The translations under genes and the position numbers were made by a program. A DNA stretch of 10,060 bases, taken from NCBI GenBank assembly GCA_003647605.1, contig QMND01000013.1, positions 1-10,060 of the forward strand, given 5' to 3'. Shown here piece by piece: positions 1,900 to 10,060 of this stretch. The notes beneath the pieces were generated by a model. It searched no databases, was not told the DNA's origin, and worked only from the letters and a program-made list of their open reading frames with translations. The DNA comes from Candidatus Shapirobacteria bacterium (lineage in GTDB: Bacteria; Patescibacteriota; Microgenomatia; UBA12405). The stretch's first letter is position 1; each line of letters opens with the position of its first letter.

Positions 1900-1911
1900 T
1901 ATAATAAAGCC
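1900..1911 (+). promoter_or_regulatory. Promoter -10 box of proS, leaderless geometry
   Basis: A perfect TATAAT lies at 1900-1905, followed by 6 bases and then the ATG at 1912. With usual -10 to start-site spacing, transcription would begin at the A of the ATG. No convincing -35 box is visible. No Shine-Dalgarno precedes the ATG. Confidence 0.7.
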
Positions 1912-3621
1912 ATGCGTTATTCAAAACTTTTTGGTAAAGTCTCCAAAACCGTCAGTAAACAAGCCATTGTCGCCAGTCATCGCTTTTTGGTCCAAGGCGG
2001 TTTTATTCGTCGTATTTCCTCAGGTCGCTATGCCTTTTTACCTCTAGGTCTTCGAGTCCGTCGCAAAGTCGAGAATATGATTCGCCAAGAAATGGTTAAA
2101 ATTGGAGCTCAAGAATTAGTTGTTCCTACTCTTCACCCTATCGAATTATGGCAACAAGCTAACCGTGATCAAAAATTTGGTCCCTCTATGATGCGACTCA
2201 AAGACCGTCGTGGGGCTGAGTTTACTTTAGGAGCTACTGCTGAAGTTATGATGGTTGAATTAGTCAAACAATTTAACCTATCTTACAAAGATTTACCTAT
2301 TAACATTTTTCAATTCTCTCAAAAATTTAGAGATGAAGTTAGAGCCAGTGGAGCTTTGTTAAGAACTAGAGAATTTATCATGAAAGATGGTTATTCTTTT
2401 CATGTTGATGAAGATAGCTTAAAACAAACCTACCAACTCTATTGGCAGGCCTATCTAAATATAGCTAAACAACTAGATTTAGAGGTGACTGTAGTTGAGT
2501 CGGACAATGGAGCCATAGGTGGTATGATTTCTCACGAATTTATGGTTGAAACCGATGTCGGTGAAGATGTTTTAGCCAAGTGTGATTGTGGCTATTCAGC
2601 CAATTTAGAGACAGCTAAATTTGTTAGAAAACAAGTCAATCCCGATGAAAAGCCCAAAAAAATGGAAATTGTGTCTCAACCCGAATGGGTTATGACCATG
2701 GAGGATAATGTCAAACATTATGGTAAATCCAAAGATCACTTCTTGAAAAATGTAGTTTATAAAGACATAGACGGCACTATTATTATTGGTGTTATTCGTG
2801 GCGACTTATCGGTCAACAAAACTAAATTGGCCAATGTTTATGGGGCCAAGGGTGAATTAGAACCAGCTACTGATGAAGATTTGGCTAAACTAGGTACTAA
2901 ATTCGGTTGGGTTCATTGTTGGGGGCATAAGGCTGTTTATGTCGGTGACTTGTCACTTAAAACAGTAGTCAATTTTATCGGTGGACAAAAAGAAAAAGAC
3001 ACTGATTCTATCAATGTTAATTATGGTCGTGATTTTGAGTGTGATTTTTTTGGTGATATTGCCGAAGCCGAAGCTGGTGCCATTTGTGGGCAATGCAACA
3101 AGGGTAAATTGAGACTAGTTAAATGTGTTGAGTTTGGTAATATTTTCAACATTGGTTATACATATAGCCAAGCGATGGACGCCAACTTTATTGACCAAGA
3201 CAATCATCAACAAAAGTTTTATATGGGCTCCTATGGAATTGGCCTAGGTCGAGCTATGGCCTGTGTAATTGAAACTCATCACGATGACAAAGGCATTATC
3301 TGGCCTAAGTCCATTACTCCTTATCATGTCCATTTGGTTTATCTCAATTCTTCCGATCCGACGGTTTTAGGAAAAGCCGAACAAGTTTACCAGGATTTAC
3401 AAAAAGCTGATATTGAAGTTTTATTCGATGATCGTCCTGATGTTTCGGCTGGTTCTAAATTTGCTGATGCTGATTTAATTGGTATTCCTGTTAGATTGTT
3501 GATTAGTCAAAGAAGTTTGGATAAAGGAGGACTAGAATTAAAGTATCGCCATTCTTCTGAATCCGAACTCATTCCCATTTCCGATTTGTCAAAAGTGATT
3601 TTAGATTTTTATAAAAAGTAA
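1912..3621 (+). CDS. proS: Prolyl-tRNA synthetase, bacterial type with editing insertion
   Basis: This class II synthetase charges tRNA-Pro with proline in the cytoplasm. The protein is 569 aa, close to the usual bacterial-type length. The N-terminus MRYSKLFGKVSKTVSKQA and the following SHRFLVQGGFIRRISSGRY fit the family start. Motif 2 is around residues 139-164 (FRDEVRASG, then REFIMKDGYSFH). The editing (INS) domain between motifs 2 and 3 is present, with FLKNVVYKD and VIRGDLSVNKTKL. Motif 3 is MGSYGIGLGR (438-447), and the anticodon-binding domain occupies the last 100 residues or so. CDC (224-226) and CGQC (392-395) could form a metal site. The family's usual RGIEVGHIF reads KCVEFGNIF here. 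I chose ATG 1912 over the in-frame GTG 1840 because the GTG lies in a repeat, upstream of a perfect -10 box. Confidence 0.96.
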   Translation: MRYSKLFGKVSKTVSKQAIVASHRFLVQGGFIRRISSGRYAFLPLGLRVRRKVENMIRQEMVKIGAQELVVPTLHPIELWQQANRDQKFGPSMMRLKDRRGAEFTLGATAEVMMVELVKQFNLSYKDLPINIFQFSQKFRDEVRASGALLRTREFIMKDGYSFHVDEDSLKQTYQLYWQAYLNIAKQLDLEVTVVESDNGAIGGMISHEFMVETDVGEDVLAKCDCGYSANLETAKFVRKQVNPDEKPKKMEIVSQPEWVMTMEDNVKHYGKSKDHFLKNVVYKDIDGTIIIGVIRGDLSVNKTKLANVYGAKGELEPATDEDLAKLGTKFGWVHCWGHKAVYVGDLSLKTVVNFIGGQKEKDTDSINVNYGRDFECDFFGDIAEAEAGAICGQCNKGKLRLVKCVEFGNIFNIGYTYSQAMDANFIDQDNHQQKFYMGSYGIGLGRAMACVIETHHDDKGIIWPKSITPYHVHLVYLNSSDPTVLGKAEQVYQDLQKADIEVLFDDRPDVSAGSKFADADLIGIPVRLLISQRSLDKGGLELKYRHSSESELIPISDLSKVILDFYKK

Positions 3622-3655
3622 TTTGTCCCTTTAGACTTAATTGTTTTATTTGTTA

Positions 3656-3667
3656 TATACTCTTAAT
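3656..3667 (+). promoter_or_regulatory. Promoter -10 box of ftsK, leaderless geometry
   Basis: TATACT at 3656-3661 lies 6 bases before the ATG at 3668, the same spacing as at proS. An overlapping TGTTATATA (3651-3659) could act as an extended -10 instead, giving a start about 2 bases earlier. No clear -35 and no Shine-Dalgarno are visible. Confidence 0.6.
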
Positions 3668-5755
3668 ATGGCTAAAAGACGACGTGGTAGACGCAAGAAG
3701 AAAAAAATCTTGTCTCTCAAACTAAAAGCAAAAACAATCAAATCTATTTTCTTCATTTTTTTCATCGTTTTATCAGTTATCATTGCCTTTTCTTTTTCGC
3801 ATGCCACCGGTTATTTAGATATGGTTAACTACTCCATTAATCAATATTTTGGTTTCGTTTCTCTTCTTCTTCCATTTTTACTTCTCATTCTGGCTTTTTC
3901 TTTCAGTCACCTAAAATCTCCTTTAAAAGAAACCAATGTCTCTCTTGGTTTTTTAATAATGTTTATTTCCTTAATGGCCTTAGCCAAGCAAGGTCTTTTT
4001 GGAAACTTTGTTTGGCAACAACTCTCTTTTTTGTTCACTGACTTTCCCACTTTTTTAATTTTTTTAGGCACTCTAATCGTTGGTTTCGTTGTTTTATTTG
4101 ACACTTCGATCGCCCAAATTATTAAACAAGCCAGAGAAATTATCAAGTTATTTAAAAGATATGTATTAGGGCGAGTTGATAAAAACAAAAAGAAGAAAAA
4201 AGAAAAAGAAGAGGTGGTTTATATTCAACAAAGACAAGAAACAGAAAAAACTAAAGACACGAGAGAAGAAGTGAAACCAACCCAACCAACCACTTCTGTA
4301 TCAGAGATCAAGAGTCCTTTAGCTTCATCGTCTAATCAAATTTGGGAATATCCAACCATTGACATTTTCGATAAAGCTCCAGGTAAAAAAGCAGACAGAG
4401 GCGATGTTGCCTATAACGCCAAAACCATAGAAGACACTTTAGAGTCTTTTGGAATTAGAGCCAGAGTTGAAGAAATAAATAACAGTCCTTCAGTTACTCA
4501 ATACGCTATTGCCGTAGCTGTTGGAACAAAGTTATCTAAAATCGTTAGTTTAGGCAATGACTTAGCTATGGCTCTTTCAGCTCCAGGCGGTCAAATCAGA
4601 ATAGAAGCCCCAATTCCTGGTCGCCCTTTAGTTGGAATAGAAGTCCCCAACCAATCATTACAAGTAGTTCCAATTAGACAAGTTTTAGAAAGTGAAATTA
4701 TAAAAAACAACAAATCAAAAACAGTCATTCCTTTAGGTTTAGGTGTTTCTGGTAAGGTTCAATTTGCTGACATTTCTAAAATGCCCCATGTTCTAATAGC
4801 CGGTCAAACTGGTTCAGGTAAATCAGTTTGTATTAATTCATGGATTAGTACTTTAATTTTTAGAGCTTCTCCAGACGAGCTAAGGTTGATAATGGTCGAT
4901 CCTAAAAGAGTTGAACTGACTCCATATAATGGTATTCCTCATTTATTGACACCAGTTATTGTTGAGCCAGATAAAGTGGTTTCTTCTCTTAAATGGGCTG
5001 TTGGCGAAATGGAAAGAAGATATAAAACTTTTGCTGAAGTTGGAGCTAAAAACATTGCTTCTTATAATAATATGGCCGGTTTTCAAAGTTTACCTTATAT
5101 TTTGATTATTATTGATGAACTGGCCGATATAATGCTTTATTCTCCTGCTGAAGTAGAGGATTCTATCTGTAGAATTGCTCAAATGGCCAGAGCTGTTGGT
5201 ATCCATTTAGTTTTAGCCACTCAGCGACCTTCTGTTGATATCTTAACCGGTTTAATTAAAGCCAATATTCCTACTCGAGTTGCATTTGCTGTTTCTTCTG
5301 TAACCGATTCCAGAGTTATTTTAGACAGTCCCGGAGCCGAGAAACTTCTTGGTAAAGGAGACATGCTTTATACTCCACCAGAATTAGCCAAGCCACTGCG
5401 TATTCAAGGTTGTTTTGTCTCTGACAAGGAAATAAAAAAATTAATAGATCATATCAAAAAACAAAAACAAAGCGAGTATGATGATCAGGTTGTCAACCAA
5501 CCAGTTTCTGCTGGTAGTTCAAGCAAAAATTTAGTTTCGGTGGGTGGGCAAGAAAAAGATGTAAAATTCCAAGAGGCCGTAACTGTCATCAAGAACAGTG
5601 GTAAGGCGTCGGCCTCCTTATTACAAAGACAATTAAAGTTAGGTTATGCTAGGGCTGCTAGAATTTTGGACCAATTAGAATCGGCTGGTCTTATAGGTCC
5701 TTCTAATGGGGCTAAACCTCGTCAAATTTTTATGGATAAGATATCCTCTGCTTAA
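3668..5755 (+). CDS. ftsK: DNA translocase FtsK/SpoIIIE
   Basis: FtsK is a membrane-anchored, ATP-driven DNA pump that clears chromosomes from the division septum. The 695-aa protein begins with a very basic stretch (MAKRRRGRRKKKK) and has four likely membrane helices at about 26-43, 61-79, 93-106 and 126-144. A short Lys/Glu-rich linker follows (about 170-225). The motor domain has Walker A GQTGSGKS (379-386), Walker B ILIIIDE (478-484) and the conserved VDPKRVEL and LATQRPSVD blocks. A C-terminal winged-helix gamma domain (about 633-689, with GYARAARILDQLE) is present, so it probably reads oriented DNA sites. I chose ATG 3668; the in-frame TTG at 3641 lies upstream of the probable -10 box. 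The linker is much shorter than in E. coli FtsK, closer to SpoIIIE/SftA-like lengths. It is probably cotranscribed with the gene at 5759. Confidence 0.96.
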   Translation: MAKRRRGRRKKKKILSLKLKAKTIKSIFFIFFIVLSVIIAFSFSHATGYLDMVNYSINQYFGFVSLLLPFLLLILAFSFSHLKSPLKETNVSLGFLIMFISLMALAKQGLFGNFVWQQLSFLFTDFPTFLIFLGTLIVGFVVLFDTSIAQIIKQAREIIKLFKRYVLGRVDKNKKKKKEKEEVVYIQQRQETEKTKDTREEVKPTQPTTSVSEIKSPLASSSNQIWEYPTIDIFDKAPGKKADRGDVAYNAKTIEDTLESFGIRARVEEINNSPSVTQYAIAVAVGTKLSKIVSLGNDLAMALSAPGGQIRIEAPIPGRPLVGIEVPNQSLQVVPIRQVLESEIIKNNKSKTVIPLGLGVSGKVQFADISKMPHVLIAGQTGSGKSVCINSWISTLIFRASPDELRLIMVDPKRVELTPYNGIPHLLTPVIVEPDKVVSSLKWAVGEMERRYKTFAEVGAKNIASYNNMAGFQSLPYILIIIDELADIMLYSPAEVEDSICRIAQMARAVGIHLVLATQRPSVDILTGLIKANIPTRVAFAVSSVTDSRVILDSPGAEKLLGKGDMLYTPPELAKPLRIQGCFVSDKEIKKLIDHIKKQKQSEYDDQVVNQPVSAGSSSKNLVSVGGQEKDVKFQEAVTVIKNSGKASASLLQRQLKLGYARAARILDQLESAGLIGPSNGAKPRQIFMDKISSA

Positions 5756-5758
5756 TCT

Positions 5759-6364
5759 ATGTTTAAAGCCTCCTCAATTCTTAAAAAAGCTAGATTGGAT
5801 AGGGAATTAGGTATAGACGAGATTTCAAAAAAGTTAAAAATTCCTTCAAAGTATCTAAGAGCCATAGAAGAGGAAGATTCTAAAAATTACCCCCAACCAC
5901 CATATTTACAACTTTTTGTCAAGGAATACGCAGATTTTTTCAATCTTAACAGTAAAGACATTCTCTCCTTTTTTCGTCGAGATTACCGAGAATCTTTGAA
6001 CAAAAAGTCTCCTCGAAAACATTCTACTTTTTTTATCACCCCTCAAAAACTTTTTAAGTCTTCTATTTTAATACTATTTTTAATTCTTTTCGCCTATTTA
6101 TTCAACCAATATGTCAGTTTTCACCGCCCTCCACAATTAGAAATTTCTTGGCCGTCAATGGAAGATGTCAAAAAAGGCGAATTTCTTTTAAAAGGTAAGA
6201 CTGATTCCGAAGCCACTATCCGACTTAATGATAGTTTGTTAATTGTTGATGATAATGGTAATTTTTCTAAACAAATCAAATTACTAGATAATCAAACTAA
6301 CAAAATTATCATTACGGCCATTTCTCCCTCCGGCGCCACTACCATTCTAGAAAAAGAGTATTGA
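5759..6364 (+). CDS. RodZ-like protein: helix-turn-helix, one membrane helix, Ig-like outer domain
   Basis: RodZ-type proteins link the cytoskeleton or elongation machinery to the cell envelope and influence rod shape. This 201-aa protein has the RodZ-type N-terminal HTH (about residues 5-65: LKKARLDRELGIDEISKKLKI, then YLRAIEEED and the PPYLQLFVKEYADFFNL pattern). A basic juxtamembrane segment, one membrane helix (about 101-119) and an extracytoplasmic beta-rich domain (about 125-201) follow. That outer domain has the look of a bacterial Ig-like or glucodextranase-B-like fold (GKTDSEATIRLND, DDNGNFSKQI). It starts 3 bases after the ftsK stop with no Shine-Dalgarno, so coupled translation is likely. 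Stop is TGA, which shows TGA is a stop in this genome. I withhold the symbol rodZ because the outer domain is divergent. Confidence 0.8.
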   Translation: MFKASSILKKARLDRELGIDEISKKLKIPSKYLRAIEEEDSKNYPQPPYLQLFVKEYADFFNLNSKDILSFFRRDYRESLNKKSPRKHSTFFITPQKLFKSSILILFLILFAYLFNQYVSFHRPPQLEISWPSMEDVKKGEFLLKGKTDSEATIRLNDSLLIVDDNGNFSKQIKLLDNQTNKIIITAISPSGATTILEKEY

Positions 6365-6402
6365 TCTTTGTTTGTTTGCTTGTTCTTGTTCTAAGGTTTC
6401 TC

Positions 6403-6411
6403 TGTTAAAAT
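6403..6411 (+). promoter_or_regulatory. Possible extended -10 promoter for the 6442 gene
   Basis: TGTTAAAAT fits the extended -10 pattern (TG, one base, then TAAAAT at 6406-6411). It would give a leader of roughly 24 bases before the ATG at 6442. The region is so AT-rich that chance matches are likely, and a second TAAAAT sits at 6412-6417. No Shine-Dalgarno is present. Confidence 0.3.
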
Positions 6412-6441
6412 TAAAATATTGATTATTTAAAAACAAAATAT

Positions 6442-7551
6442 ATGGGTCAGGCCAATCCCAATACTCCTATTACTCAAGCTGGCAATGTTTTAGTTATTAA
6501 AAAGAGCCATTTGTACACCTTTTTTGGATTTTTATGCCTGTTTTTAGTTGCTTTATTTTTTGCCTATAAATACTATCAACTCAAAAATACGGATCAGGTA
6601 AAAGTCTCTGCTTCAAATCAAACCATCCCCACTTCGATCCATCAACCGTCTTTGGCCTTGCCCGAGACAGCCCAATGGAAAAACTATTCTAGGACAGGTT
6701 TTAGTTTTAAGTATCCGTCTAATTTAGACTTGCGTGAAACTAAATCAGGGCATGTTTCTTTGTCTTTGTATGGGCCTAGCCAAAAAAAAGATACCGAGCC
6801 TTACGATGGTTTGTATCTTACTTTTGGTCATCCCCTTAAATTAAAAAATTCTAGCTTAGACGACTATACAGATCAGCAACTCAAGCTTCTTCTGGAAACA
6901 GGGGAGTTGGTTGATAAGAAAAAAAAGATAAAGATAAATGGTTTTGACGCTTACTCTTTTTCTGTTCAAGGACTTGGTCTACATCGATATATTTATGTTA
7001 AGTCGACTGACGGTCGTTTGGTTATGACTATAACTGATTCGACTCACGATCCCGGTCATCAGGGTTTTTCTAAAACAGTTGACTTGATTATGTCCACTTT
7101 TGTTTTAAATAATCAATCAAACGCTTCTGTTTCTACATATACCAACCAGGATTTTGCTTTTCAAATAGAATATCCGTCTAACTGGTTTTCAGCTACCGCT
7201 TTGCATGACAAAAATTTGTTTCTTCTTAATCCGGAGTCACAACCGCACCCCGATTCTGGAGAAATTTTTGAACCAATCGAAATCATGGCCACCGATCAGG
7301 TCGAAAGTGAGGCTGAATTTATCAAGAGCTGGACACAGGTGGGCTACAAAGTGGGTATCATCAACAAAATCAATTCATCTCCATTTACCACCGTTTATCA
7401 GCTAGACAAAACCGGCCCATCTCCCGGACCAGACCACTTTTTAGTTATGGCTACCTCACTTCAAAAATATGGAGTTGTTAAAATCGTGGTCCATGATTTG
7501 GATTTAATCACCCAAGCATACGATATTTTATTCAGTTTGTCTTTTTTGTAA
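6442..7551 (+). CDS. Membrane-anchored protein with two PsbP-like repeats, function unknown
   Basis: I do not recognise a named gene. The 369-aa product has a short N-terminal cytoplasmic tail, one membrane helix (about 24-44) and a large extracytoplasmic part, with no lipobox Cys. That part holds two copies of a domain. Each begins with an aromatic/Tyr-Pro-Ser signature: GFSFKYPSNL at 86-95 and DFAFQIEYPSNWF at 237-249. Each ends with a hydrophobic helix-like tail: VDLIMSTFVL (213-222) and AYDILFSLSFL (359-369). This resembles the PsbP-like domains common in membrane-anchored proteins of uncultured bacteria. Outside photosynthesis their role is mostly unknown. The second copy carries extra Pro/Gly-rich loops. 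The in-frame TAA at 6412 leaves ATG 6442 as the only plausible start. The gene stands alone between rodZ-like and the insertion sequence. Confidence 0.75.
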   Translation: MGQANPNTPITQAGNVLVIKKSHLYTFFGFLCLFLVALFFAYKYYQLKNTDQVKVSASNQTIPTSIHQPSLALPETAQWKNYSRTGFSFKYPSNLDLRETKSGHVSLSLYGPSQKKDTEPYDGLYLTFGHPLKLKNSSLDDYTDQQLKLLLETGELVDKKKKIKINGFDAYSFSVQGLGLHRYIYVKSTDGRLVMTITDSTHDPGHQGFSKTVDLIMSTFVLNNQSNASVSTYTNQDFAFQIEYPSNWFSATALHDKNLFLLNPESQPHPDSGEIFEPIEIMATDQVESEAEFIKSWTQVGYKVGIINKINSSPFTTVYQLDKTGPSPGPDHFLVMATSLQKYGVVKIVVHDLDLITQAYDILFSLSFL

Positions 7552-7576
7552 TTCATACCTCCCTCTTGTCAACTCT

Positions 7577-7607
7577 TGTTAAAGTTTCACCCAATTAGTT
7601 TACATTT
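7577..7607 (+). repeat. Left inverted end of the insertion sequence
   Basis: It starts TGTTAAAGTTTCAC and ends GTTTACATTT (7598-7607). It matches the reverse complement of 8652-8680 with two single-base gaps: shared TGT, GT, TCAC and ten identical bases at the inner edge. Confidence 0.5.
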
Positions 7608-7643
7608 CCGAGGCTAAAGTTAATTGTTTTTGCCTATTAAAAA

Positions 7644-7705
7644 TCAGCTGACCCCTTGCTAATCTATGAATTGAATTACAAATTAAAACAAGGAGGGTCA
7701 ACTGA
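7644..7705 (+). promoter_or_regulatory. Hairpin sequestering the transposase ribosome-binding site
   Basis: TCAGCTGACCCCTTG (7644-7658) pairs with CAAGGAGGGTCAACTGA (7689-7705): 14 pairs, one C-A mismatch and a two-base bulge, with a 30-base AT-rich loop. The right arm contains the whole Shine-Dalgarno AAGGAGGG (7690-7697) and ends on the A of the start codon. RNA transcribed through the whole region should hide the ribosome site. A transcript starting within the loop or right arm would lack the left arm and be open for translation. Confidence 0.65.
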
Positions 7706-8739
7706 TGACTGATAATAACATAAATAAGCTGATAGAGAGCAGGAAAAGAATAGTAAGGGCAGTTAGAAATAAAGAGATGTCTGTCAAGTCTGCTGCCAAT
7801 TTATTAGGAGTAACTAGACAAGGACTGTGGAAGATTAAAAAGAGAGTAGAAAATGGTGGCTATACTAAAACTAATTTATTGGGTTCTAAACCAGGTCCTA
7901 GGTCATACAAAAGGGTTTGGAATAGAACTGAAGAATGGATAGAGAAAGAGGTGGAGAAGTCGTGGAGACAGTATTGTGTCGGAGTAAGCAATTTAGTCTG
8001 GATTCTAGAAGACACGGTCGGTATTAGTTTATCCAGGTCTACTATCTACCGTATTTTAATTAGGAGAAAAGTGTATGAAGAAAAGAAAAAAACGAGGAAG
8101 AGAAAAGACTGTAGACATTACACTAAATCCTATCCTGGGGAAGAAATACAAATTGATACCACTGAACCATTTGGCAAGAGTAAAGGAATAATGATTGTAG
8201 CCATAGACGATTACAGTAGGTGGGTATCGGCTGATCTGTATCATGGTAATACATCAGCTAATGCTGCCAAGTTTCTATATCGCCTTAGGCATTCTCTGCC
8301 ATTCCCAATTGTGTCAGTCAGATTAGACAATGGTTCTGAATTTCAAAAAGACTTTGTTAAGGCTTGCAAGGATTTGAATATCAATATTATTAGAAACCCA
8401 CCGCATAGTCCTCAAAAAAATGGCAAGGTAGAAAGAATGCACAGAACCATAGAAGAAGAGTGTTTGTGGAGAGTTAAAGCCAAGCCAAAAGAAGAGATGA
8501 GAAACAAGTATTGGTTAAACAGATATTTGGCTTGGTACAATCACCTTAGGAGACATTCTGGCTATGGGATGAACAAGAAAAGGCCCATAGAGAGAATAGA
8601 AGAATGGCTTCTACATCACCTTAACAATTCATTGGATACCCCAGAGGTCACAAATGTAAACGAAACTGTGATACGGTACATTTCTTGCTTTTTGGCCTTT
8701 AATTACTCTATACTATTTTTATGGATATCACTCAACTAA
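7705..8739 (+). CDS. DDE transposase with HTH and integrase (rve) core, IS481-like
   Basis: This enzyme catalyses cut or copy and joining of its insertion sequence. The 344-aa protein has an N-terminal HTH (about 12-50: MSVKSAANLLGVTRQGLWKI), a second HTH-like region (about 90-120: SLSRSTIYRILIRRKV) and an rve core. The catalytic residues are probably Asp151 (QIDTTEPF), Asp208 (RLDNGSEF) and Glu243 (NGKVERMHRTIEEE), with 34 residues between the last two. All three are present, so it may be active. The start is set by AAGGAGGG 7 bases before ATG 7705, the only strong Shine-Dalgarno in the window. Codon use differs from the neighbours: nearly all Arg are AGA/AGG and many Ile are ATA. Residues after about 326 are encoded beyond the right inverted repeat. 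This hydrophobic tail (ISCFLAFNYSILFLWISLN) is probably read-through into host DNA and overlaps the next gene by 19 bases. Confidence 0.9.
   Translation: MTDNNINKLIESRKRIVRAVRNKEMSVKSAANLLGVTRQGLWKIKKRVENGGYTKTNLLGSKPGPRSYKRVWNRTEEWIEKEVEKSWRQYCVGVSNLVWILEDTVGISLSRSTIYRILIRRKVYEEKKKTRKRKDCRHYTKSYPGEEIQIDTTEPFGKSKGIMIVAIDDYSRWVSADLYHGNTSANAAKFLYRLRHSLPFPIVSVRLDNGSEFQKDFVKACKDLNINIIRNPPHSPQKNGKVERMHRTIEEECLWRVKAKPKEEMRNKYWLNRYLAWYNHLRRHSGYGMNKKRPIERIEEWLLHHLNNSLDTPEVTNVNETVIRYISCFLAFNYSILFLWISLN
8652..8680 (-). repeat. Right inverted end of the insertion sequence
   Basis: Read on the minus strand it begins TGTACCGTATCACAG and ends GTTTACATTT, matching the left end at 7577-7607. It lies inside the 3' part of the transposase reading frame. 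Confidence 0.5.
8709..8720 (+). promoter_or_regulatory. Promoter -10 box of the 8721 gene, leaderless geometry
   Basis: TATACT (8709-8714) lies 6 bases before ATG 8721. A weak -35 candidate, TTGCTT (8685-8690), sits 18 bases upstream, just outside the right end of the insertion sequence. The element therefore appears to have landed immediately upstream of an intact host promoter. Confidence 0.55.
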
Positions 8740-8966
8740 TTTTGGTCATTAGTATTGTTATTATTACTACGCTTTTAACCATCATCGCTTTTTACTTTAT
8801 TTCTATCCTAAAAGAAGTCAAAATGACTTTATCAAAAAGCAATCTCATTTTAGACGACACCCACTTAATTACTTCTTCTATAGCTCAACCAGTTTCTAGT
8901 TTTGCCGATTTTTTTAAAGGTCTTAAAGACGGTATTCAATCTTTGAACAATTTGTTTAAAAAATAA
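8721..8966 (+). CDS. Small membrane protein, DUF948/YtxG-like
   Basis: The product has 81 aa. One membrane helix spans about residues 4-29 (very rich in Ile/Leu), followed by an amphipathic stretch with Ser/Thr and a short Lys-ended tail (FFKGLKDGIQSLNNLFKK). The shape, an N-terminal anchor plus a soluble helical segment, is that of DUF948/YtxG-type proteins, whose function is poorly known. The match is by architecture and neighbourhood rather than a diagnostic motif. The ATG at 8721 follows a -10 box at the leaderless spacing. The following gene starts one base after its stop, so the two are almost certainly cotranscribed. Confidence 0.65.
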   Translation: MDITQLILVISIVIITTLLTIIAFYFISILKEVKMTLSKSNLILDDTHLITSSIAQPVSSFADFFKGLKDGIQSLNNLFKK

Positions 8967-8967
8967 C

Positions 8968-9210
8968 ATGTCCGTTTCCGATTCTAAAACCACCACAACC
9001 TCGTCTAGCTTTATCGTTGGCTTGGTTTTAGGTTTGATTCTTTCCGCCATCTTAGCCATAGTTTTATATAAAAAGGACAAAAATAAAACTTTAGCTCAAC
9101 TTAAAAAAGAATTAGAAAAGTATTTTAACTTTGTCTCTGCTTCTCCTAAAAAAACAATTCCCAAAATTCGTCAGTCCAAACCAAAGAAATTCAAAGGTAT
9201 AAAAAAATAG
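8968..9210 (+). CDS. Small membrane protein, YtxH-like
   Basis: The product has 80 aa: a Ser/Thr-rich N-terminus, one Gly/Leu/Ile membrane helix (about 14-34, FIVGLVLGLILSAILAIVLY), a charged helix (KKDKNKTLAQLKKELEKYF) and a very basic tail rich in Lys and Pro. This arrangement resembles YtxH-type proteins, where a short Gly-rich helix precedes a charged helix. In Firmicutes ytxG and ytxH are neighbours, and the same pairing seems to occur here, one base apart. It has no Shine-Dalgarno of its own and probably depends on translation of the upstream gene. Function is unknown. Confidence 0.62.
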   Translation: MSVSDSKTTTTSSSFIVGLVLGLILSAILAIVLYKKDKNKTLAQLKKELEKYFNFVSASPKKTIPKIRQSKPKKFKGIKK

Positions 9211-9215
9211 TTTTT

Positions 9216-9229
9216 GTTATAATTTGGCT
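9216..9229 (+). promoter_or_regulatory. Extended -10 promoter of alaS, leaderless geometry
   Basis: TATAAT (9218-9223) is preceded by TGT (9215-9217), a full extended -10. Six bases separate it from ATG 9230, so transcription should start on the start codon. It begins 7 bases after the stop of the preceding gene. No Shine-Dalgarno is present. Confidence 0.7.
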
Positions 9230-10060
9230 ATGAATGCACCTCGACTTAAACAAAAGTTTATTGATTTTTTCCTTTCTAAAGGACACCAAGAAATTCCTTC
9301 CGCTAGTTTGATTCCCGAAAACGATCCGACCACCCTTTTTATTTCAGCTGGTATGCACCCGTTAGTTCCTTTTTTACTAGGTACTCCCCACACTTTGGGT
9401 AAAAGACTGGTTGATGTTCAAAAGTGTCTTAGAACAAGGGATATTGATGAAGTAGGTGATACATTTCATCACACTTTTTTTGAAATGTTAGGCAACTGGT
9501 CTTTAGGTGATTATTTCAAAAAAGACATGATTGCTTGGAGCTATGAATTTTTAACTAAACAATTAAATCTTAATCCTCAACATTTGCATATTACTTGTTT
9601 TGCCGGCGATACCAATGCTCCCAAAGATGAACAAAGTGCCAAATTTTGGCGTCAACTTGGCATTCCAGAATCTAGAATTCATTTTTTACCCAAAAAAGAC
9701 AACTGGTGGGGTCCAGCTGGAGCCACTGGTCCTTGTGGTCCCGACAGCGAGATGTTTATTGATACTCAACCACAACAGCCATCAATTCCCTTTGATCAAG
9801 CTTGTCGACAAGGACGAATTATTGAAATCTGGAACGATGTTTTTATGCAATACAATAAAGATGAGAGCAGTAAATACCATCTGCTTTCTCAACAGAATGT
9901 CGACACCGGCATGGGAGTCGAAAGAACCGTAGCCATTTTAAACGGCTTTTCTGACAATTATTTGACTGACATTTGGCAACCCATCATTCAAAAAATAGAG
10001 CAATTATCTTCCCAAAAATATTCTCAACAACCTCGTCCTATGCGAATTATGGCTGACCAT
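9230..10060 (+). CDS. alaS: Alanyl-tRNA synthetase, 3'-partial
   Basis: AlaRS charges tRNA-Ala in the cytoplasm. The 277 codons visible run without a stop to the window edge and cover most of the catalytic (class II) domain. The N-terminus MNAPRLKQKFIDFFLSKGH is followed by family signatures: FISAGMHPLVPF, DVQKCLRTRDIDEVGDT, HHTFFEMLGNWSLGDYFKKD (motif 2 region), NWWGPAGATGPCGPDSEMF, EIWNDVFMQYN and NVDTGMGVERT (motif 3 region). The GPAG...CGPDSEM version differs from the CGPCSEI form of many bacteria. The editing and C-Ala domains, if present, lie beyond the window, so full length cannot be judged. The start ATG 9230 is set by homology to AlaRS N-termini and by the -10 box 6 bases upstream. 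Confidence 0.96.
   Translation, partial: MNAPRLKQKFIDFFLSKGHQEIPSASLIPENDPTTLFISAGMHPLVPFLLGTPHTLGKRLVDVQKCLRTRDIDEVGDTFHHTFFEMLGNWSLGDYFKKDMIAWSYEFLTKQLNLNPQHLHITCFAGDTNAPKDEQSAKFWRQLGIPESRIHFLPKKDNWWGPAGATGPCGPDSEMFIDTQPQQPSIPFDQACRQGRIIEIWNDVFMQYNKDESSKYHLLSQQNVDTGMGVERTVAILNGFSDNYLTDIWQPIIQKIEQLSSQKYSQQPRPMRIMADH

Follow-up and report, generated by a model that had tools for sequence, protein, structure and literature searches.

We analysed a window of 10,060 nucleotides, the whole of contig 13 (QMND01000013.1) of a Candidatus Shapirobacteria genome of 949,383 bases in 195 contigs (GCA_003647605.1). The organism belongs to the Patescibacteria and is of the Microgenomates/Shapirobacteria type. 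Several genes in this window are preceded, at a short and nearly constant distance, by a sequence resembling the -10 box of a bacterial promoter, and our subject is this box and the possibility that it gives rise to messenger RNAs (mRNAs) lacking a 5' leader. In what follows, TATAMT stands for TATAAT or TATACT, the spacer is the number of bases between the box and the ATG, and SD denotes a Shine-Dalgarno sequence. The relevant features of the window are these:

1900..1905 (+): -10 box TATAAT of proS, with the six-base spacer AAAGCC before the ATG at 1912
1912..3621 (+): proS, prolyl-tRNA synthetase (Pfam PF00587, PF03129, PF04073), predicted leaderless
3656..3661 (+): -10 box TATACT of ftsK, with the six-base spacer CTTAAT before the ATG at 3668
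3668..5755 (+): ftsK, DNA translocase (Pfam PF01580, PF17854, PF09397), predicted leaderless
5759..6364 (+): gene for an HTH_25 protein, a downstream cistron separated from ftsK by 3 bases, without an SD or a TATAMT box at spacer 6
7691..7696 (+): AGGAGG, a strong SD upstream of the transposase gene, whose ATG is at 7705; the sole SD among the eight window starts examined
8709..8714 (+): -10 box TATACT of the 8721 gene, with the six-base spacer ATTTTT
8721..8966 (+): the 8721 gene, encoding an 81-amino-acid protein with no Pfam match, predicted leaderless
8968..9210 (+): gene for an 80-amino-acid protein, a downstream cistron separated from the preceding stop by 1 base, without an SD or a TATAMT box at spacer 6
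9215..9223 (+): extended -10 box of alaS, TGT-TATAAT, inside a 19-base gap, with the six-base spacer TTGGCT before the ATG at 9230
9230..10060 (+): alaS, alanyl-tRNA synthetase (Pfam PF01411), predicted leaderless and running off the contig

A preliminary description of this DNA had placed TATAAT or TATACT exactly six bases before the ATGs of proS, ftsK, the 8721 gene and alaS. This is correct to the base: TATAMT-N6-ATG occupies positions 1900-1914, 3656-3670, 8709-8723 and 9218-9232. The description was also right that these four genes have no SD, since the 18 bases upstream of each of their ATGs contain no SD core (scored as AGGA, GGAG or GAGG), and it gave the correct gaps of 3 and 1 bases between the genes at 5759 and 8968 and the stop codons preceding them. 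Because alaS begins only 19 bases past the previous stop, the boxes are not restricted to first genes that lie far from their neighbors. The alaS box is the only one among the window genes with a strict TGn upstream. For the gene at 6442, which follows a 77-base gap, we saw neither a -10 box nor an SD, and an Rfam search of the window returned no match.

The same description expected starts outside the window to show a -10 motif with a peak 12 bases upstream, and such an enrichment is present both in the host genome and in its relatives. We read 251,805 bases of the host genome directly (the window and 20 further contigs, about 252 kb, with a guanine-plus-cytosine (GC) content of 36.5%) and covered the whole genome by pattern counts. 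TATAMTN6ATG occurs 49 times in the whole genome, compared to 10 times for the reversed pattern. In the directly read stretches, TATAMT followed by an ATG that opens a frame of at least 80 codons is found 8, 17 and 8 times at spacers 5, 6 and 7, or 33 times in total, while the other 28 spacers between 0 and 30 together account for 26 cases, none of them exceeding 3. As this histogram needs no gene prediction and no choice of start, it speaks against an artefact of start choice.

To count genes, we picked starts with a codon-usage script that is blind to the upstream sequence. A first gene was one with an opposite-strand neighbor or a gap of at least 60 bases, an internal gene was one with a same-strand neighbor and a gap of at most 20 bases, and a box was TATAAT with at most one mismatch at a spacer of 4-8, compared with control distances. 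By these definitions, 46 of the 106 host first genes have a box, against 6.0 at the control distances; 1000 shuffles of their upstream sequences gave 9.4 on average and never more than 22. Host internal genes have a box in 11 of 52 cases against 1.5, and an SD in 7 against 4. A motif search from random seeds recovered tTAtAA at spacers 7 and 6 in the host. The spacing is less rigid than had been proposed: its mode is indeed 6, and its range is 5-7 (10, 27 and 4 host first genes at spacers 5, 6 and 7, respectively).

The frequency of the box depends on the distance to the preceding gene. At a spacer of 4-8 it is found in 9 of 120 overlapping genes, in 9/49 genes with a gap of 0-5, in 23/52 with a gap of 6-20 and in 40/87 with a gap of 21-59; for three classes of increasingly wide gaps above 59 the counts are 35/105, 36/97 and 36/100, the last class being gaps above 400. 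Close neighbors thus often have a box of their own, as alaS does in the window, and abutting genes mostly do not. In a pool of 104 first genes with a box at spacer 5-7, drawn from the host and from genomes of its family and order, 33 have TG exactly one base upstream of the box, as in an extended -10 promoter. This is an enrichment of about sixfold, as TG is found at other offsets in 1-8 genes (mean about 5), apart from one offset with 16.

The box is also conserved among orthologues, whose ATG positions agree. We collected the sequences upstream of ftsK from 26 genomes. Within the family of the host, 16 of 18 orthologues have TATACT or TATTAT at spacer 5-6. When these 18 sequences are aligned with that of the host, the columns from -12 to -7 form the most conserved upstream block, with the majority base in 14-16 of the 19 rows; the corresponding values are 6-13 rows for columns -40 to -13, and among the six columns nearest to the ATG only -1 reaches 14. 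The only orthologue from the class level carries TATAAT, again at spacer 6. For proS, TATAAT with at most one mismatch lies at spacer 5-8 in 12 of 14 orthologues. For alaS, such a match lies at spacer 6-7 in 8 of the 21 loci examined (of 80 fetched), and in 8 of the 11 loci whose match begins at an ATG.

The ftsK orthologues from the same order offer a natural comparison of operonic ftsK with ftsK that stands alone. Five of these seven (L269, L270, L272, L273 and L275) have a stop codon at most 8 bases from the ATG, as read by eye, and no box. The other two have longer gaps: L274 has TATGAT at spacer 6, and L271 has no box even when one mismatch is allowed.

In pooled relatives, boxes precede 63 of 185 first genes in the family (8 genomes; 15.5 at control distances), 16 of 37 in the order (3 genomes; 1.0) and 57 of 230 in the class (6 genomes; 14.0). 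TATAMTN6ATG exceeds its reversed-pattern control in all 36 genomes considered, that is, the host and 35 relatives, and the box exceeds its own control in 27 of 29 genome samples, many of which contain fewer than 20 first genes. The random-seed motif search gave TATAAT at spacers 6, 5 and 7 in the family pool and a blurred TAaAaT at 6, 7 and 0 in the class pool.

We assessed the breadth of the pattern using 192 genomes drawn across the phylum, the host included, by comparing TATAMT-ATG spacings of 5-7 and 15-17. The shorter spacing is more frequent in 175 of the 192 genomes, and significantly less frequent in none. The excess is found in all 15 genomes of the host's class, including the host (12 at p<0.01), and in 160 of the 177 genomes in the rest of the phylum (94 at p<0.01). 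One family, f25 (G043, G065, G083, G101, G115 and G143), has almost no excess, with 744 against 709, and is the only such case among the nine multi-genome families that we summed. The trait is therefore not universal in the phylum. A genome outside the class, G144, appears to use both modes: among its 112 first genes, 33 have a -10 box (12.0 expected from the controls) and 35 have an SD (3), and 40 of its 70 internal genes have an SD (6).

SD sequences are at background level in host first genes, with a core in 5 of 106 against 6 in the control. The 3' end of the 16S ribosomal RNA nevertheless keeps the anti-SD (GGATCACCTCC, containing CCTCC) in all 14 loci checked, including that of the host. 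SD pairing is thus possible, and is hardly used by host first genes. For same-strand genes whose gap does not exceed 5, the SD counts are 5/31 in the host (control 4.7), 12/108 in the family (7.0) and 7/30 in the order (1.7). Neither an SD nor a -10 box is present in 22 of these 31 host genes.

In eight 16S loci from the same family, including the host (L171-L175, L177, L178 and L181), the anti-SD is directly followed by its own complement (CCTCCTTTGAGG), and the two might form a pairing in the precursor. At the order level, loci L168-L170, L176 and L185 have CCTCCTTTCTA and then a G/A-rich sequence.

We also considered whether the loss of a ribosomal factor could have caused a leaderless mode, and we do not claim this. 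All 19 genomes have initiation factor IF3, and 14 of them have an S1-like protein (E<1e-50, under the rpsA cut-off). The protein bS21 was not detected in the host and was found in 7 of 19 genomes, 3 of them over the cut-off; it was also undetected in four among the bacterial control genomes, one of which is Thermotoga, an organism that uses SD sequences.

We believe that the boxes are sigma-70-type -10 promoters, often extended, that give rise to leaderless mRNAs, with downstream cistrons probably translated by coupling or re-initiation, and we assign this explanation a probability of roughly 0.87. Very probably, the mRNAs would be leaderless or nearly so. Under this model, RNA polymerase would start on the start codon, or within a base or two of it, at a point set by the position of the box. 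The mRNAs of many transcription units would then lack a 5' leader and would be read by initiation on the start codon itself. Downstream cistrons, which mostly have neither a -10 box nor an SD, would depend for their translation on coupling to the upstream gene or on re-initiation after it. What the sequences show directly is the motif, its set distance from the starts, its promoter-like features, its conservation, its link to intergenic space and the scarcity of SD sequences. The transcription start point is inferred from the spacing between box and ATG, and the mode of ribosome initiation is an inference too.

The preliminary description had gone further, and took the boxes to point to leaderless initiation as the default for first genes in this lineage. 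The box is the commonest recognizable start signal of the lineage. However, the term 'default' is only partly justified, as the strict excess amounts to about 40% of first genes: in the host, 43% have the strict motif (about 38% above background), and the rest mostly have neither signal.

Several results weigh against our interpretation. Over half of the host first genes lack the strict motif, and allowing the start to move did not raise the excess (45/106 against 10.6 in host first genes). Boxes at -35 with a spacer of 16-18 are found in 20 of the 104 pooled genes against 14-15, which is barely above background, and at spacer 17 the count is 14/132, compared to 3-12 at other spacers. Among genes with spacer 6, we found no preference for a pyrimidine at -1, as an initiator bias would give. 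Given the presence of IF3 in all 19 genomes and of an S1-like protein in 14, there is no ribosomal signature that demands leaderless initiation. Two genomes, G053 (0/7 against 2.0) and G093 (0/6 against 1.0), fall below their controls, and G040, of the same class, has a weak excess (16/91 against 10.5).

Other such points concern the script. In E. coli K-12, internal genes have a -10 box in 3 of 21 cases against 0.0 at control distances. A Thermus plasmid, intended as a positive control, gave no box among 16 first genes and is too small for the purpose, so that the script has no positive control for -10 boxes outside the phylum Patescibacteria. Our first, cruder gene caller found boxes in only 11 of 57 first genes of the family against 7, and left large stretches of the relatives free of genes. 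It was replaced by one retrained with more sequence, which is still imperfect: in the window, it calls the proS start correctly, misplaces the ftsK start by 306 bases in the downstream direction, and misses both the 8721 gene and the cut-off alaS. As it thus counts one of the four window boxes, our box percentages are more likely to be too low than too high. Because starts are chosen without upstream information, misplaced starts will lose boxes rather than create them, as the ftsK example illustrates.

Among the alternatives, the one that survives best is that the A/T-rich box is a translational element, such as a ribosome site that is A-rich or unstructured, on mRNAs that have leaders, the promoters being farther upstream. 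First genes are indeed enriched in A at -4 and -5, and an element of this kind would fit with an SD frequency at background. However, it would be expected before downstream cistrons as well, and the box is as rare in overlapping genes, relative to genes with a gap of 21-59, as the counts above indicate. Moreover, the TGn extension is a feature recognized by polymerase, and the motif is TATAAT or TATACT rather than generic A-richness. We therefore consider this explanation improbable.

It is less probable still, and in our view quite unlikely, that the boxes are ordinary sigma-70 promoters of a compact, AT-rich genome that coincide with start codons by chance or because short intergenic space is selected for, yielding short leaders of 1-10 bases. 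The low GC content is in line with this idea, and some of the boxes lie at spacers 7-9, which would give leaders of 1-3 bases. However, the number of boxes observed in the host is more than twice the maximum among the shuffles, and compactness alone does not predict a sharp mode at 5-7. The box also persists at the widest gaps and at higher GC content, as in G201 (GC 0.482), where 31 of 80 first genes have a box against 1.5.

Finally, an artefact of start choice or gene calling can be dismissed almost entirely: although we used our own script rather than a curated annotation, with a weaker first version and the miscalls described above, the spacer histogram is free of start choice, the starts were picked without upstream information, orthologues share the ATG, and the same script applied to E. 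coli first genes gives the expected SD (17/41 against 4) and no -10 excess (1/41 against 2.0).

Some further observations on the window and the host bin should be mentioned. Positions 7595-8664 are an insertion sequence with an rve-type transposase and the inverted repeats TTAGTTTACATTT and AAATGTAAACGAA. The open reading frame of the transposase (7705-8739) extends beyond the right repeat, overlapping the -10 box of the 8721 gene as well as the beginning of that gene. We found no second copy of the insertion sequence in the 252 kb of host stretches. A short repeat of the GTCATTGCGAGGAGCGAAGCGACGTGGCAATC type, which we take to resemble a widespread intergenic repeat, lies between rnj and proS at 1812-1858, and has six more full or partial matches in the same 252 kb. 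The host bin has a completeness of 84% and a contamination of 4.6%. It contains two 16S matches, one full and one partial (the pair G000:C23/G000:C38), so that a second organism is perhaps present in it. Given this contamination and the second, partial 16S, a few stretches may be foreign.

It is useful to compare these boxes to start signals in other bacteria. Bacteroidetes initiate translation independently of SD sequences, on leadered mRNAs with an A-rich ribosome site. As in Bacteroidetes, the anti-SD is kept here and the SD hardly used; unlike in Bacteroidetes, a -10 box abuts the start codon.

In Deinococcus-Thermus, -10 motifs adjacent to open reading frames with leaderless mRNAs are established (PMC12340547), and in D. 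radiodurans a TANNNT box lies 6-7 bases before the open reading frame in nearly a third of genes (PMC12340547). Our case resembles this one, as the box is near the open reading frame, works in Deinococcus-Thermus without a -35 box, and is conserved across orthologues (PMC12340547). However, in Deinococcus-Thermus the second main motif is GGAG, a ribosome-binding motif, and cells were used to test the promoter role of the box (PMC12340547). In our host, SD sequences of first genes are near background, the box is TATAAT or TATACT and often TGn-extended, and it is known from sequence alone.

Leaderless genes are also common in Actinobacteria (Zheng et al. 2011, PMC3160421). In the TA-led genes of that study, as in the genes described here, a TA-like signal lies about 12 bases ahead of the start, and for low-GC genomes the signal is TAtAAT, with a TG peak noted in Lactococcus (PMC3160421). 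Firmicutes, which are mostly of low GC content, average 4.2% of genes (PMC3160421), compared to a box in about 40% of first genes in our host at its 36.5% GC. The part of Zheng et al. (2011) that was covered does not name Patescibacteria, and we found no earlier report of leaderless genes in this phylum in the literature searched, which includes few subscription papers; this is not proof of novelty. Leaderless genes are known from other bacteria, and the present lineage would extend them.

We advance a broader proposal tentatively, and would not yet wager on it: that leaderless initiation from extended -10 promoters is ancestral or predominant in much of Patescibacteria. On this proposal, the intact anti-SD would go largely unused, monocistronic genes would be leaderless, downstream cistrons would be re-initiated, and SD sequences would serve mainly mobile genes (here, one transposase) and some sublineages, such as that of G144.

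Our interpretation of the boxes makes a concrete prediction that a single map of 5' ends could test. If it is correct, gene finders trained on SD sequences would misplace starts in a very large uncultured group, for which a -10 box at spacer 5-7 would be a better start cue. A promoter that takes up about 15 bases and requires no leader would also account for close neighbors, with gaps of 6-20 bases, having promoters of their own in a tightly packed genome. Moreover, leaderless initiation, known from a few cultured phyla, would extend to a deep branch of bacteria with reduced ribosomes.

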